Position numbers and translations under genes: made by a program. Shown here piece by piece: positions 3,043 to 36,355 of a stretch of 64,000 nucleotides of DNA (positions are counted from its first letter, which is position 1; every line of letters begins with the position of its first letter). The stretch spans positions 248,001-312,000 of the forward strand of contig NZ_BMKX01000002.1 of NCBI RefSeq assembly GCF_014644555.1, given 5' to 3'. The stretch is from Glutamicibacter ardleyensis (GTDB lineage Bacteria > Actinomycetota > Actinomycetes > Actinomycetales > Micrococcaceae). The notes under the pieces were generated by a model. That model made no database searches and was not told the origin of the DNA. It saw only the letters and a list, made by a program, of their open reading frames with translations.

Positions 3043-4665
3043 TTATGGAACCGAGCATTCGTCGTTGTTTGCGGCGATCTGAGCCAGACGCGTATTCTGG
3101 CCAATCATTTCAAGCTCTACCAGGTACTGCTCATCGATAGGGGAGCCATCGCGCTTGGTCATTGGTACTTCATCACCGTTGGATAGCTTCGGGGCATCGT
3201 TGATGTCTGTGGCTTCTTCCGGGGCTTCCTCAGTGGGTTCTGCCGAGCCACTAGCCTCGGTAGTCTCCTTGGACTTCTCTGGGTCTTGGGACTTCTTGGA
3301 TTCCTTGGGCTTCTTTGGTGCGTTCTGCTTTTCGATGATTCCGTTGATGCGATCATGAATCTTATCAAAGTCAGGGTACGTGGAGAAGGAACGTTCGAAG
3401 TCCGGAGAACCAAGAGTCAGGCGGCTAAATGGTGTACCAGCGACCTTGTCGGCGACTGAAACGAAGGAACTGAGCTGGCTTGCAGGAATGTTCGTTTCAA
3501 CCAGCTGCTCGCCGGCCTGCATGATGCTGCTGAAGTTTGTCAGGATGGTCTGCGGGGTGAACTGCTTGATAATTGCCTGCTGCAGGCACTGCTGGCGCTT
3601 GATGCGGTGGTAGTCGTCGGTGAAATCACGCGAACGAGCAAACCAGAGTGCGTCCTTGCCGTTGAAGGTCTGCACCCCTGGAGCGAACCAGTGGGTGTTG
3701 ACTAGCGAGTTTTCCCACTTCTTCCCGTTGTAAGGGACCCAGCCACCGGAATCGATGGTTACCCCGCCCAAGGCGTCAACGAAGTTCGCAAAGCCGGCCA
3801 TGTCAACCATGACGTAACCCTGAACCTTGAGATCGGTGGTTCCCGATAGTGCGTCCATGACCGCCTGGGCGCCAACGTTTTTCACCGAGTCTGGGAAAGC
3901 ATCGGCGTGGTTGTCTACCGCATCGCGATAAATGGCGTTGAACAGGCATTCGTCGCCGCAGTCATAACCGTCAGGGTAGACCTCGGCCATCGGGGAATCC
4001 TTGGCGAAGCGGGCCTTCTGGAAGTTACGCGGTACGGAGATCATCAGCGATTTGCCGGTTTTGGCGTCTACCGAAAGCAGCGCTATCGAGTCGGTACGTA
4101 CCCCGTCACGGTTTGAACCGGAGTCTGCGCCGAGCACCGCAATGTTGTAACGCCCGTTGACCGGGTCAAAGGCAGGACCTTCGTCAAAGACTTTAACGAT
4201 GGTTTCGCGACCGGTATTCAGGATGGACGCACCATAAACGAAGATGCCGCTGGTGGCGATGACCGCCGCCAGCGTGAAGATCGTGACGATCGCGCGCATC
4301 CCGGGAGCCAGCATGCGTGGCCTGATGATGAACAGCGTGTTGATGAACATGATCAGCCAGCCCACGGCGAGTACCGAGAGCACCACAATCAGGAACAACT
4401 GGAAGTTAGGATGTGCCGCCCAGCCAAGCAGGATTGAGCGGTTAATAAAGTACAGGGCCGCGAGCAGGATGAGCACTGCCCAGCACAGCATGGTGACCGT
4501 GACCGCGATCCGTCCCAGCTTGCGGTTTCCTGCGATGAGCTGAGCGCTACCGGGGAAAATTATGGTCAGAATGACCAGAATTATGGCGCGTTTGCTCCGG
4601 GCCGGAGAGGAAATGCTCTCCGGGTTCCGAAGCGGACTTGGAGCGCGGTGACTGGCAGAACCCAT
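3043..4665 (-). CDS. LCP family protein (LytR-CpsA-Psr cell-wall glycopolymer ligase)
   Basis: LCP enzymes move lipid-linked glycopolymers onto peptidoglycan outside the membrane; in actinobacteria they attach arabinogalactan or teichoic-acid-like polymers. The 540-residue protein has about four hydrophobic segments in residues 25-150. The LCP core follows, with NIAVLGADSG, a conserved RTDSIALLSVD, SVPRNF and FARSRDFTDDYHRIKRQQ, the Arg/Asp-rich lipid-phosphate-binding elements. The C-terminal ~100 residues are a Lys/Glu/Pro/Ser-rich low-complexity tail. The gene lies 17 nt after purE on the same strand, so purK-purE-LCP probably share a transcript. Confidence 0.92.
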   Translation of the reverse strand: MGSASHRAPSPLRNPESISSPARSKRAIILVILTIIFPGSAQLIAGNRKLGRIAVTVTMLCWAVLILLAALYFINRSILLGWAAHPNFQLFLIVVLSVLAVGWLIMFINTLFIIRPRMLAPGMRAIVTIFTLAAVIATSGIFVYGASILNTGRETIVKVFDEGPAFDPVNGRYNIAVLGADSGSNRDGVRTDSIALLSVDAKTGKSLMISVPRNFQKARFAKDSPMAEVYPDGYDCGDECLFNAIYRDAVDNHADAFPDSVKNVGAQAVMDALSGTTDLKVQGYVMVDMAGFANFVDALGGVTIDSGGWVPYNGKKWENSLVNTHWFAPGVQTFNGKDALWFARSRDFTDDYHRIKRQQCLQQAIIKQFTPQTILTNFSSIMQAGEQLVETNIPASQLSSFVSVADKVAGTPFSRLTLGSPDFERSFSTYPDFDKIHDRINGIIEKQNAPKKPKESKKSQDPEKSKETTEASGSAEPTEEAPEEATDINDAPKLSNGDEVPMTKRDGSPIDEQYLVELEMIGQNTRLAQIAANNDECSVP

Positions 4666-32807: not shown

Positions 32808-32917
32808 GCTCCGAGCATAACTGGTTCTAGATTAAGGACCGGGGTCTCATTTCTGTGCACTTTTTACCCAGTCTGGTTTCGCGGATGCGACCTGATTGGT
32901 CATTCGCGACTCTTCTA

Positions 32918-32932
32918 TACCCTCAGGGGGTA
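32918..32932. promoter_or_regulatory. TACCC-N5-GGGTA operator 1 upstream of copZ
   Basis: TACCC (32918-32922) and GGGTA (32928-32932) form an inverted repeat with a 5-bp G/C-containing spacer, matching the form of operators of CsoR/RicR copper repressors. It lies upstream of the promoter-embedded second site. Confidence 0.7.
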
Positions 32933-32933
32933 C

Positions 32934-32962
32934 TTGAAATATACCCACTAGGGGTATATGCT
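32934..32962 (+). promoter_or_regulatory. copZ-copA promoter with embedded operator 2
   Basis: A -35-like TTGAAA (32934-32939) and a -10-like TATGCT (32957-32962) are 17 bp apart. A second TACCC-N5-GGGTA operator (32942-32956) fills almost the whole spacer. A repressor bound there would block RNA polymerase directly, the arrangement typical of CsoR-controlled copper genes. Confidence 0.65.
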
Positions 32963-33062: not shown

Positions 33063-33290
33063 ATGAGCTCCAGCATCACTTTGAAAATTGACGGCTTGAC
33101 CTGTGGACACTGTGTCTCTTCGGTCACTGAGGAGCTGCAGGAAATAGCCGGGGTCAGCGCGGTCGAGGTTGACCTTGTGGTCGGTGGAACATCTACTGCG
33201 ACGGTTGCTACCGAGACGCAGGTGGAGAATTCTGCATTCGAAGCAGCTATTTCCGAGGCCGGATATAACCTCATCTCTGTTGACGCCTAA
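33063..33290 (+). CDS. copZ: Copper chaperone / heavy-metal-associated domain protein
   Basis: A 75-residue single HMA domain protein. The Cu(I)-binding cysteines are in GLTCGHCVSSV (C14 and C17), with the ferredoxin-like fold pattern of CopZ. It would carry Cu(I) in the cytoplasm to the exporter CopA encoded 67 nt downstream. A strong GGAGG precedes the ATG. The upstream promoter carries two CsoR-type operators, so copper or thiol stress probably induces the pair. Confidence 0.93.
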   Translation: MSSSITLKIDGLTCGHCVSSVTEELQEIAGVSAVEVDLVVGGTSTATVATETQVENSAFEAAISEAGYNLISVDA

Positions 33291-33357: not shown

Positions 33358-35649
33358 ATGAGTAACGACACTGCATTCCCCACTAACCAGCGCATAGTCG
33401 AGTTGGACATTCAGGGAATGACCTGCGCCTCCTGTGTGGGTCGAGTCGAGCGCAAACTGGGCAAGATTGAAGGCGTTGAAGCCTTGGTCAACTTGCCGTT
33501 GGAATCAGCGCGCATCACCGTTCCGCAAGACGTGAGCGACGAAATATTGATCTCAACCGTGGAATCGGCCGGTTATAAGGCCAGCCTCAAGGTTGACCAG
33601 TACGCGAAGCCATCGGTTCCAACGCTGGATGACGGTGATCAAGACGTTTCCGAATCTCCGGCACAGCTTGAACCAATTCCAGTGAAAGCAGCGCCTGCGG
33701 TCGGTGCGGACCTGAAGAAACGGCTGATTGTAGCTGCCATCTTCACCACTCCGCTCTTTGTCATTTCCATGATTCCCGGTGCCCAATTCCCGCACTGGGG
33801 TTGGGTAGCGCTGGTCCTGGCTACGCCGGTCACCTTCTGGTCGGCCTGGCCATTTCACCGAGCAGCCGCGATCAATGCACGCCACTTCGCCTCCACCATG
33901 GATACCTTGGTGTCCATCGGTGTCCTGGCCGCTTACTTCTATTCGCTGTGGCAGTTGATTGCAGATCCTAATATCACCGCCCACATTGGCATGTCGATGA
34001 GCGAGCATGCCTTGTACTTTGAAACTGCCGGCGTGGTAGCGACTTTCCTACTGCTTGGCCGATGGCTGGAAGCACGCGCTAAAGCCCGCGCGGGTGACGC
34101 ATTAAAAACGCTGCTGGATCTGGGAGCCAAAGAAGCTACCCTGATCCGCGACGGTGTGGAAACGAAGGTTTCGGCCGCTACTCTGGTGCCCGGAGATGAA
34201 TTCATTGTGCGTCCAGGGGAAAAGATCGCCACAGACGGCTTTGTGGTCTCTGGACACTCGGCGGTAGATACCGCGCTGGTGACAGGTGAATCGGTCCCCG
34301 TAGAGGTTGGCCCGGATGACACGGTCACCGGAGCTACGATCAATACTTCAGGTGCGCTAATCATTCGCGCTACCCGAGTGGGTCAGGACACCACGTTGGC
34401 GCAAATGGGACGCTTGGTCTCCGAAGCGCAGACCGGCAAGGCTCCGATTGCCCGGCTGGCGGACAGGATCTCCTCGGTATTCGTACCTATTGTGCTGGTT
34501 ATCGCTCTCGGGACTTTTGTGACCTGGTTGCTTGTCGCCGGAGATATGGGCGCGGCTGTTGCTGCCTCCGTTGCGGTACTGGTTATCGCTTGCCCCTGTG
34601 CATTAGGTCTGGCAACGCCTATTGGATTGCTGGTTGGTACTGGGCGAGGAGCCCAGCTAGGTATCCTGATTCGCGGTCCGCAAGTTCTGGAGGACACGCG
34701 GAAGGTTGACACGGTTCTGCTGGATAAGACCGGAACCGTTACCGAGGGAAACCTTGCGGTCACCTCCACCACCGCGGCTGACGGGTTTGCTGAAAGCACT
34801 GTTTTGGCACTGGCAGGCGCTGCCGAGTCCAACTCCGAGCATCCAATCGCCCAGGCGATTGTCGCGGCCGCAAAAGCTGATGGCGACCTGTTGGGATCAA
34901 GCGATTTCAGCTCGGCCGCTGGCGGAGGCGTTCGCGCGGTAGTTGACGGACAGACGGTGGTAGCAGGGCGCGTCAGCTGGTTGAAAGAGAACGGTATTGA
35001 GCTGACCGAGGGGCAGCATGCGGACCTGGCTGCTGCGCAGCAAGCCGGTGCTACCTCGATCATGGTTGGCGTTGATGGGGTCTTCGCGGGGTTGGTCAAC
35101 TTGACCGATACGATCAAGGAATCCTCTGTGGCCGCTATCGCCAGGCTCAAGGATTTGGGACTGCGCCCGGTGCTGCTCACCGGTGACAATAGGGCGGTGG
35201 CCGAACTCGTGGCGGCCAAGGTAGGCATTGCACCCGAAGATGTCTTTGCAGATGTCTTCCCCGAGGGCAAAGCCGAGGCCGTGCGTAAGCTCCAGGCGCA
35301 AGGCAAGGTTGTGGCCATGGTGGGTGACGGTGTTAATGATGCCCCTGCGTTGGCTCAGGCTGACCTGGGCATCGCGATGGGATCCGGCACTGATGTCGCT
35401 ATCGAGGCTGCGGATGTGACCATTATGGGCAACGATATCGATCAGGTAGCCCACTCCATTGAACTGTCCCGCAAGACTTTGGGAACCATCAAGATGAACC
35501 TTTTCTGGGCGTTCATCTACAACACCGCCGGCATCCCGGTGGCAGCTCTGGGGTTCCTGAATCCGATGATTGCAGGCGCTGCCATGGCTGCCAGCTCCGT
35601 GCTGGTTGTGGCCAATTCGCTACGACTGCGTGGGTTTGGACGTAAGTAA
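33358..35649 (+). CDS. copA: Copper-translocating P-type (P1B) ATPase
   Basis: A Cu(I)-export ATPase of 763 residues. It has an N-terminal HMA domain with GMTCASCVGRVE (C23, C26), eight transmembrane helices, the actuator TGES, the membrane metal site CPC in VIACPCALGLATPIG, the phosphorylated Asp in DKTGTVTEG, SEHPIA, and the hinge MVGDGVNDAPAL. The last helices carry the YN and MxxS elements expected of P1B-1 Cu(I) pumps (FIYNTAGIP, MAASSVLVV). It follows copZ in the same operon and ends at a bidirectional hairpin. Confidence 0.95.
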   Translation: MSNDTAFPTNQRIVELDIQGMTCASCVGRVERKLGKIEGVEALVNLPLESARITVPQDVSDEILISTVESAGYKASLKVDQYAKPSVPTLDDGDQDVSESPAQLEPIPVKAAPAVGADLKKRLIVAAIFTTPLFVISMIPGAQFPHWGWVALVLATPVTFWSAWPFHRAAAINARHFASTMDTLVSIGVLAAYFYSLWQLIADPNITAHIGMSMSEHALYFETAGVVATFLLLGRWLEARAKARAGDALKTLLDLGAKEATLIRDGVETKVSAATLVPGDEFIVRPGEKIATDGFVVSGHSAVDTALVTGESVPVEVGPDDTVTGATINTSGALIIRATRVGQDTTLAQMGRLVSEAQTGKAPIARLADRISSVFVPIVLVIALGTFVTWLLVAGDMGAAVAASVAVLVIACPCALGLATPIGLLVGTGRGAQLGILIRGPQVLEDTRKVDTVLLDKTGTVTEGNLAVTSTTAADGFAESTVLALAGAAESNSEHPIAQAIVAAAKADGDLLGSSDFSSAAGGGVRAVVDGQTVVAGRVSWLKENGIELTEGQHADLAAAQQAGATSIMVGVDGVFAGLVNLTDTIKESSVAAIARLKDLGLRPVLLTGDNRAVAELVAAKVGIAPEDVFADVFPEGKAEAVRKLQAQGKVVAMVGDGVNDAPALAQADLGIAMGSGTDVAIEAADVTIMGNDIDQVAHSIELSRKTLGTIKMNLFWAFIYNTAGIPVAALGFLNPMIAGAAMAASSVLVVANSLRLRGFGRK

Positions 35650-35765: not shown

Positions 35766-36035
<270 letters not shown>

Positions 36036-36060
36036 TCATGTTGAAATTTCTTCAATCCTA

Positions 36061-36076
36061 TACCCCAGGGGGTTTA
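36061..36076. promoter_or_regulatory. Degenerate TACCC/GGG operator upstream of the CsoR-type gene
   Basis: TACCC (36061-36065) is followed after 4 bp by GGGTT (36070-36074), one base off the GGGTA half-site. It lies 38 bp upstream of the regulator's start codon, fit for autoregulation. Confidence 0.45.
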
Positions 36077-36100: not shown

Positions 36101-36116
36101 ATACCCCTAGGGGTAT
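36101..36116. promoter_or_regulatory. 16-bp perfect palindromic operator between CsoR-type gene and small Cys-rich gene
   Basis: ATACCCCTAGGGGTAT is a perfect palindrome with the same TACCC/GGGTA half-sites as the copZ operators but a 4-bp spacer. It sits in the divergent promoter region between the regulator and the 58-residue protein and could control both. Confidence 0.7.
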
Positions 36117-36178
36117 TCTGATGTAGGCTAATTTCGTAGTTTGCATACGGATGAATCATTGAGTTTAGGGAGCATAAA

Positions 36179-36355
36179 ATGTGTCGTGCCGTGAAATGTA
36201 GCAAGTGCCAAAAAACCACCTGGGCAGGGTGCGGGCAGCACGTTGAGCAAGTTATGGCTAACGTTCCACGCAATTCACGCTGTGCTTGCGACCCGAACGC
36301 GGCTCAAGAAAATAAGTCGGGCAAGGGCTTTTTCGCACGTCTTTTCGGCAGGTAA
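36179..36355 (+). CDS. Small cysteine-rich putative zinc-binding protein (58 aa)
   Basis: An ATG with GGGAG 6 nt upstream (36168-36172) opens a 58-residue frame. The N-terminus is MCRAVKCSKCQKTTWAGCGQ, then HVEQVM, CAC, and the C-terminus FFARLFGR. Seven cysteines and one His in the first 37 residues suggest one or two structural metal sites. I recognise the MCRxVxCxxCxKTTWAGCGQHV signature from uncharacterised small proteins in many bacteria; no function is established to my knowledge. Its position under a CsoR-type operator and divergent from the regulator suggests a metal- or thiol-stress role. Confidence 0.85.
   Translation: MCRAVKCSKCQKTTWAGCGQHVEQVMANVPRNSRCACDPNAAQENKSGKGFFARLFGR

Follow-up and report, generated by a model that had tools for sequence, protein, structure and literature searches.

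Our analysis of a 64,000-nucleotide stretch of Glutamicibacter ardleyensis DNA (contig NZ_BMKX01000002.1, positions 248,001 to 312,000; hereafter the window) indicates that a short gene at 36179–36355 on the forward strand, which encodes a 58-residue cysteine-rich protein named P58 here, is very probably a member of a CstR-type (persulfide) regulon, as judged from its sequence context. The account that we favor on balance is that P58 and the divergently oriented regulator gene constitute a minimal CstR-type unit in which P58 serves a sulfane-sulfur role. The mechanistic proposal that P58 acts as a sulfane-sulfur acceptor or carrier is tentative. Regulons of this kind are known, and P58 is probably a component that has so far gone undescribed.

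The P58 gene is well formed, as the preliminary description of this DNA had stated. It is an ATG-initiated open reading frame of 58 codons encoding MCRAVKCSKCQKTTWAGCGQHVEQVMANVPRNSRCACDPNAAQENKSGKGFFARLFGR, and a Shine-Dalgarno-like GGGAG (36168–36172, forward strand) lies six nucleotides 5′ of the ATG. The product contains six cysteines (C2, C7, C10, C18, C35, and C37), not seven as counted previously. Compared with its nearest named relative, in Arthrobacter sp. MYb213 (L159), the gene differs at 11 bases, ten of them at third codon positions, and the codon changes comprise ten synonymous and one non-synonymous, which shows that the gene is real and under purifying selection. Furthermore, homologues occur in 90 members of a 149-genome sample of the window's family, and nine residues (C2, C7, C10, W15, G17, C18, G19, H21, and C35) are invariant in 48 aligned members. 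The conservation of P58 exceeds chance, and its frame is kept in close relatives, a point on which the preliminary description had made the standing of the gene depend.

The region between P58 and the regulator gene contains two 16-bp palindromes with a two-base center (N2), both located by pattern search. The perfect palindrome reported previously is present: ATACCCCTAGGGGTAT at 36101–36116 matches all 14 specified bases. A second site, ATACCCCAGGGGGTTT at 36060–36075, matches 13 of 14, with one mismatch from ATACCCCNNGGGGTAT. With up to three mismatches allowed, the palindrome occurs twice in the window, against a shuffle mean of 0.13. In the genome, nine sites match ATACCCCNNGGGGTAT with at most one mismatch, all of them at three cstR-like loci; a further six, including one at the locus near 479 kb, deviate at two positions, and the reversed control pattern gives two. 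Sites with a two-base center, 16 bp long, mark the three cstR loci: nine score 13 or 14 of 14 and one scores 12. L159 shows the gene arrangement of the window locus and keeps the half-sites of the P58 operator; the center differs. In the available part of a study of Streptomyces coelicolor, the sulfane-sulfur sensor ScCsoR is described as binding a 16-bp ATACC-N6-GGTAT sequence and controlling PDO, TauE, and rhodanese genes (PMC7533328).

The regulator gene (35766–36023, reverse strand) encodes an 85-residue protein that scores 74.8 bits against PF02583, for which the gathering score is 22.8 (E 7.5e-21). Its best matches among PDB sequences are 7mq1/7mq2 and 7mq3 (E ~7e-9), 6ahx (3.6e-8), and MtCsoR 2hh7 (8.1e-8), and because these E values are close, they do little to separate CsoR from CstR. 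Entries 7mq1, 7mq2, and 7mq3 carry the label CsoR in the PDB; they probably represent a pneumococcal CstR. In copper CsoR proteins, Cu(I) is coordinated by a Cys-His-Cys set in which the histidine lies four residues before the second cysteine. In the printed alignments, this position is occupied by His in MtCsoR 2hh7, Gly in the window regulator, and Asn in 7mq1. The window regulator shows the residue pattern of the CstR type, two conserved cysteines without the copper-ligand histidine. The same pattern extends to relatives: among 72 regulators near P58, 71 of which are readable, the residue replacing the CsoR histidine is Gly in 44, Ala in 26, and Ser in one, and a cysteine stands 29 residues before the second cysteine in all 71. 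NCBIfam models match the window regulator only far below the cut-off, with FrmR and copper-sensing RicR first. The earlier designation 'CsoR-type' is correct in that a divergent PF02583 protein is present, but it is too broad, since the protein is of the non-copper, CstR-like kind.

The genome encodes four PF02583 proteins, three of which (the window regulator, C1:164801, and C1:479777) are much alike. The gene context of a CstR-type system (persulfide dioxygenase, rhodanese, and TauE) is found at both paralogous loci and in many relatives. Specifically, a P58 paralogue with 74% identity (C1:479413–479586) is flanked on one side by a CstB-like metallo-beta-lactamase (MBL)-rhodanese gene and on the other by the divergently oriented cstR paralogue C1:479777; after the CstB-like gene come genes for rhodanese-YgaP, rhodanese, and TauE. 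The cstR copy at C1:164801 is accompanied by like sulfur genes plus a DsrE gene, and a P58 search of the genome found no copy at this locus. The genome thus holds two similar clusters of CstB-like, rhodanese, TauE, and cstR genes (C1:160500–168500, L053, and C1:473500–484500, L054), with P58 only at the second. The window locus itself comprises the regulator and P58 only, without other sulfur genes. Two further matches to P58 in the genome, C2:305847 (E 0.013) and C2:433470 (E 0.075), are weak and were taken as chance. The preliminary description had tied P58 to copper, zinc, or persulfide stress, and the persulfide part is supported by the regulator without the ligand histidine, the paralogue in a cluster of persulfide-dioxygenase-like, rhodanese, and TauE genes, and the sulfur-form spacing of the operators.

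To survey the family, we examined all 114 listed P58 matches in the 149 genomes; excluding two duplicates and one broken copy lacking the motif leaves 111 loci. Genes with a midpoint within 4.5 kb were counted as neighbors; most stretches reach 4 kb and others end at contig ends, with flanks of at most 1.5 kb in 14 of the 114. An N2 operator of at least 13/14 is present within 400 bp upstream of P58 at 78 of the 111 loci. Such an operator occurs in 13 of 633 random windows, which were taken from the loci of all four survey sets although these loci contain other cst operators, and shuffled upstream regions (114 regions, 20 shuffles each) never reach 13/14, the best being 12. CstR is encoded near P58 at 71 loci, CstB at 60, rhodanese at 37, TauE at 33, thioredoxin at 18, and a CoA-disulfide-reductase-like protein at seven. 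Overall, an operator or CstR is present at 100 of the 111 loci, and an operator or any sulfur or thiol gene at 110, so that the regulator linkage anticipated by the preliminary description is borne out in other genomes. A scan of named genomes yielded at least 587 confirmed relatives, of which the best 80 were taken; 21 of these repeat counted loci and 59 are new. Among the 59, an operator is found at 34, CstR at 32, either at 48, and an operator or any sulfur or thiol gene at 53. Across the two sets, which together comprise 170 unique loci, gene order varies widely. When neighbors are restricted to 0.7 kb upstream and 0.9 kb downstream, 36 of the 170 loci have an operator and no sulfur gene, and ten have neither. 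The varied gene order and the 36 loci together indicate that the operator follows the P58 gene.

These data suggest a mechanism in which a CsoR-fold repressor would occupy the two 16-bp operators in the intergenic region and repress P58 as well as its own gene. By analogy to the characterized Streptomyces relative, the repressor may sense sulfane sulfur (persulfide, polysulfide) via its two cysteines and would be released from DNA by reactive sulfur. P58 would then be made together with the regulon at the two other loci, comprising a persulfide dioxygenase-like MBL-rhodanese, rhodaneses, and the sulfite exporter TauE. The core of P58 is predicted to form a CCCH zinc-knuckle-like element (C7, C10, C18, and H21), supplemented by two further invariant cysteines, C2 and C35. 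P58 may accept or buffer sulfane sulfur and either hand it to a rhodanese or dioxygenase or be reduced by thioredoxin, and its conserved C-terminal tail, GFFxRLFGR-like, could be a docking element. It is from these features that we infer a zinc-knuckle and persulfide-acceptor role.

In the available part of its description, sulfane-sulfur handling in Streptomyces is a four-gene circuit (PMC7533328). The S. coelicolor circuit (ScCsoR, ScPDO, rhodanese, and TauE) resembles the P58 regulon in its two-cysteine CsoR-like repressor, compared here by description, its 16-bp ATACC-N6-GGTAT operators, and its PDO-rhodanese and TauE targets; the four genes listed there do not include P58, and the window unit is composed of the regulator and P58 only. 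In the accessible accounts of Staphylococcus aureus, the CstR/cst operon likewise has a CsoR-fold persulfide sensor that controls sulfur-oxidation genes. We know of no P58 in the S. aureus cst operon. A bolder proposal, to which we lend somewhat less credence than to the carrier mechanism as such, is that P58 is the founding member of a hitherto undescribed family of small proteins dedicated to accepting sulfane sulfur: CstR-controlled, persulfide-induced zinc-knuckle mini-proteins that would take up persulfide on invariant cysteines and pass it to rhodanese, dioxygenase, or thioredoxin, with some copies standing alone with an operator only. If the favored account is right, the sulfane-sulfur regulon of many actinobacteria includes an additional protein that has been overlooked, one so short that gene callers can miss it.

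Two sets of observations weigh against the favored account. First, the link to the regulon weakens among distant members. In a phylum-wide draw, P58 was found in 48 of 396 genomes. Among the best 29 of the new loci, examined with flanks of 1.5 kb, 13 have an operator or CstR. Of the 24 matches left, 18 are covered by a further 20 stretches; setting aside two that repeat earlier loci and three that lack the motif leaves 15, and only two of these have an operator or CstR. P58 is thus firmly tied to the regulon in the window's family and in most of the near relatives that were examined, and the tie loosens in distant classes. Evolutionary distance, the shortness of the flanks, and divergence of the operators may each play a part. 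Second, a Thermus CsoR-family sulfur regulator is reported, in the available part of that study, to be unresponsive to NaHS (PMC10318464), and the effector of the window regulator is for that reason one that we infer.

Alternatively, P58 could be a zinc protein that does not carry sulfur but acts on CstR, CstB, or thioredoxin, for example, as an adaptor or regulator; its zinc site would have a structural function or would be given up upon persulfidation. The ligand-like spacing C7-x2-C10 ... C18-x2-H21 is invariant, the AlphaFold model (mean pLDDT 75) consists of a hairpin, a knuckle, and a short helix, and the tail is conserved, all of which would suit an adaptor; zinc binding by P58 itself, the zinc part of the earlier proposal, is possible. 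Some members also bear a weak likeness to eukaryotic zinc motifs, in that the Pfam model zf-CCCH_Mcm10 matches 11 of 51 (best E 0.2). However, these Pfam matches are not significant, and a four-ligand site leaves the invariant C2 and C35 unexplained, so we regard the zinc-adaptor explanation as rather unlikely. P58 has no match above the cut-off in Pfam, NCBIfam (a scan of the window protein only), or PDB sequences; the single protein has no PDB match at all, and its profile gives one weak, irrelevant match (E 0.075). The eukaryotic family NRIP1_repr_3, which matches four of the 51 members (best E 5e-4), was taken as chance. The P58 family is absent from the titles and abstracts listed in searches of open-licence literature, and a full-text search for its peptide words retrieved a single paper, on malaria by its title.

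P58 might instead be a generic small redox protein that serves as a thioredoxin substrate in broad thiol stress and came under CstR control in the window's family and in close relatives of that family. Such an origin would fit the distant-class members, which mostly lack the linkage, as well as the thioredoxin and CoA-disulfide-reductase-like neighbors; thioredoxin is the divergent upstream neighbor of P58 in eight of the 170 loci. Clustering of the neighbors of distant and solo members revealed no common new partner besides thioredoxin, CoA-disulfide-reductase-like, and rhodanese genes. We consider this explanation improbable, given how often P58 loci of the window's own family have an operator or CstR.

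A metallothionein-like role, in which P58 buffers copper or metals in general and is induced along with copZA through a copper CsoR, is far less probable still. It is prompted by the cysteine content of P58, by the general resemblance of its operator to CsoR operators, and by the adjacent genes for a copZ-like HMA protein (33063–33290, forward strand) and a copA-like P-type ATPase (33358–35649, forward strand). Both P58 and metallothioneins, as generally known, are short and rich in cysteine, but P58 has only six cysteines in 58 residues, a conserved W-x-G-C-G-x-H core, a partly folded prediction, and no family match. Moreover, copZ has upstream operators of its own, at 32917–32933 (12/14) and 32941–32957 (13/14), which have a three-base center (N3, 17 bp), lie outside the P58 unit, and are retained in L159 with the same scores. 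The fourth PF02583 gene, C1:517853, encodes a Cys ... His-x3-Cys pattern, lies beside a second copZ-like gene, and has one N3 operator (14/14); its product is, from these features, plausibly the copper sensor of the genome (true CsoR). The copper CsoR-copZA system of Streptomyces lividans shares the regulator fold and a similar G-tract palindrome with the window unit, but its operator consensus in the accessible part of the report, ATATACCCCTNAGGGGTATAT, is a 17-bp sequence with TAC-N9-GTA (PMC3902906). Neither that spacing nor the ligand histidine occurs in the P58 unit, whose sites at 36060 and 36101 are N2; in this genome, the 17-bp form is found at copZA and csoR and the histidine in C1:517853. 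Because of the N2 versus N3 spacing, the sulfur-type operator is common to the window regulator and P58 and is not shared with the adjacent copZA. This difference of one base pair suggests a simple sequence rule, which parted sulfur from copper at eight examined stretches holding a site. Finally, no CsoR match was found near P58 at the 111 family loci or the 59 further loci, and copper genes are near it at only six and three, respectively. Operator spacing, ligand residues, the PF02583 inventory, and the neighbor counts lead us to reject a copper reading of the unit and with it the copper part of the earlier proposal; the copper genes are mere neighbors.

That P58 is a spurious open reading frame, as its shortness and the plasmid rows might suggest (of the 60 listed, 50 have no gene entered at the P58 position, in an incomplete gene table), is refuted by the tenfold synonymous excess, the occurrence in 90 of 149 genomes, and the invariant columns. 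Among 72,556 plasmid records, 66 carry relatives of P58; all ten of the genera listed are actinobacterial (Rhodococcus 34, Clavibacter 16), and there is one more beyond the list. On viral contigs, the search gave three pattern stretches and one P58 relative, 52% identical and situated at the very end of the viral-labelled contig L288, which may be host flank there. Four loci (L193, L221, L229, and L231) carry a second P58 copy 0.2–2.6 kb from the first. A 38-residue version without the tail diverges from a WCGPC thioredoxin gene in L134 and L136 (~3513–4117) and in L138 (~4049–4654), and operator-like sites of 11–12/14 lie upstream of it.
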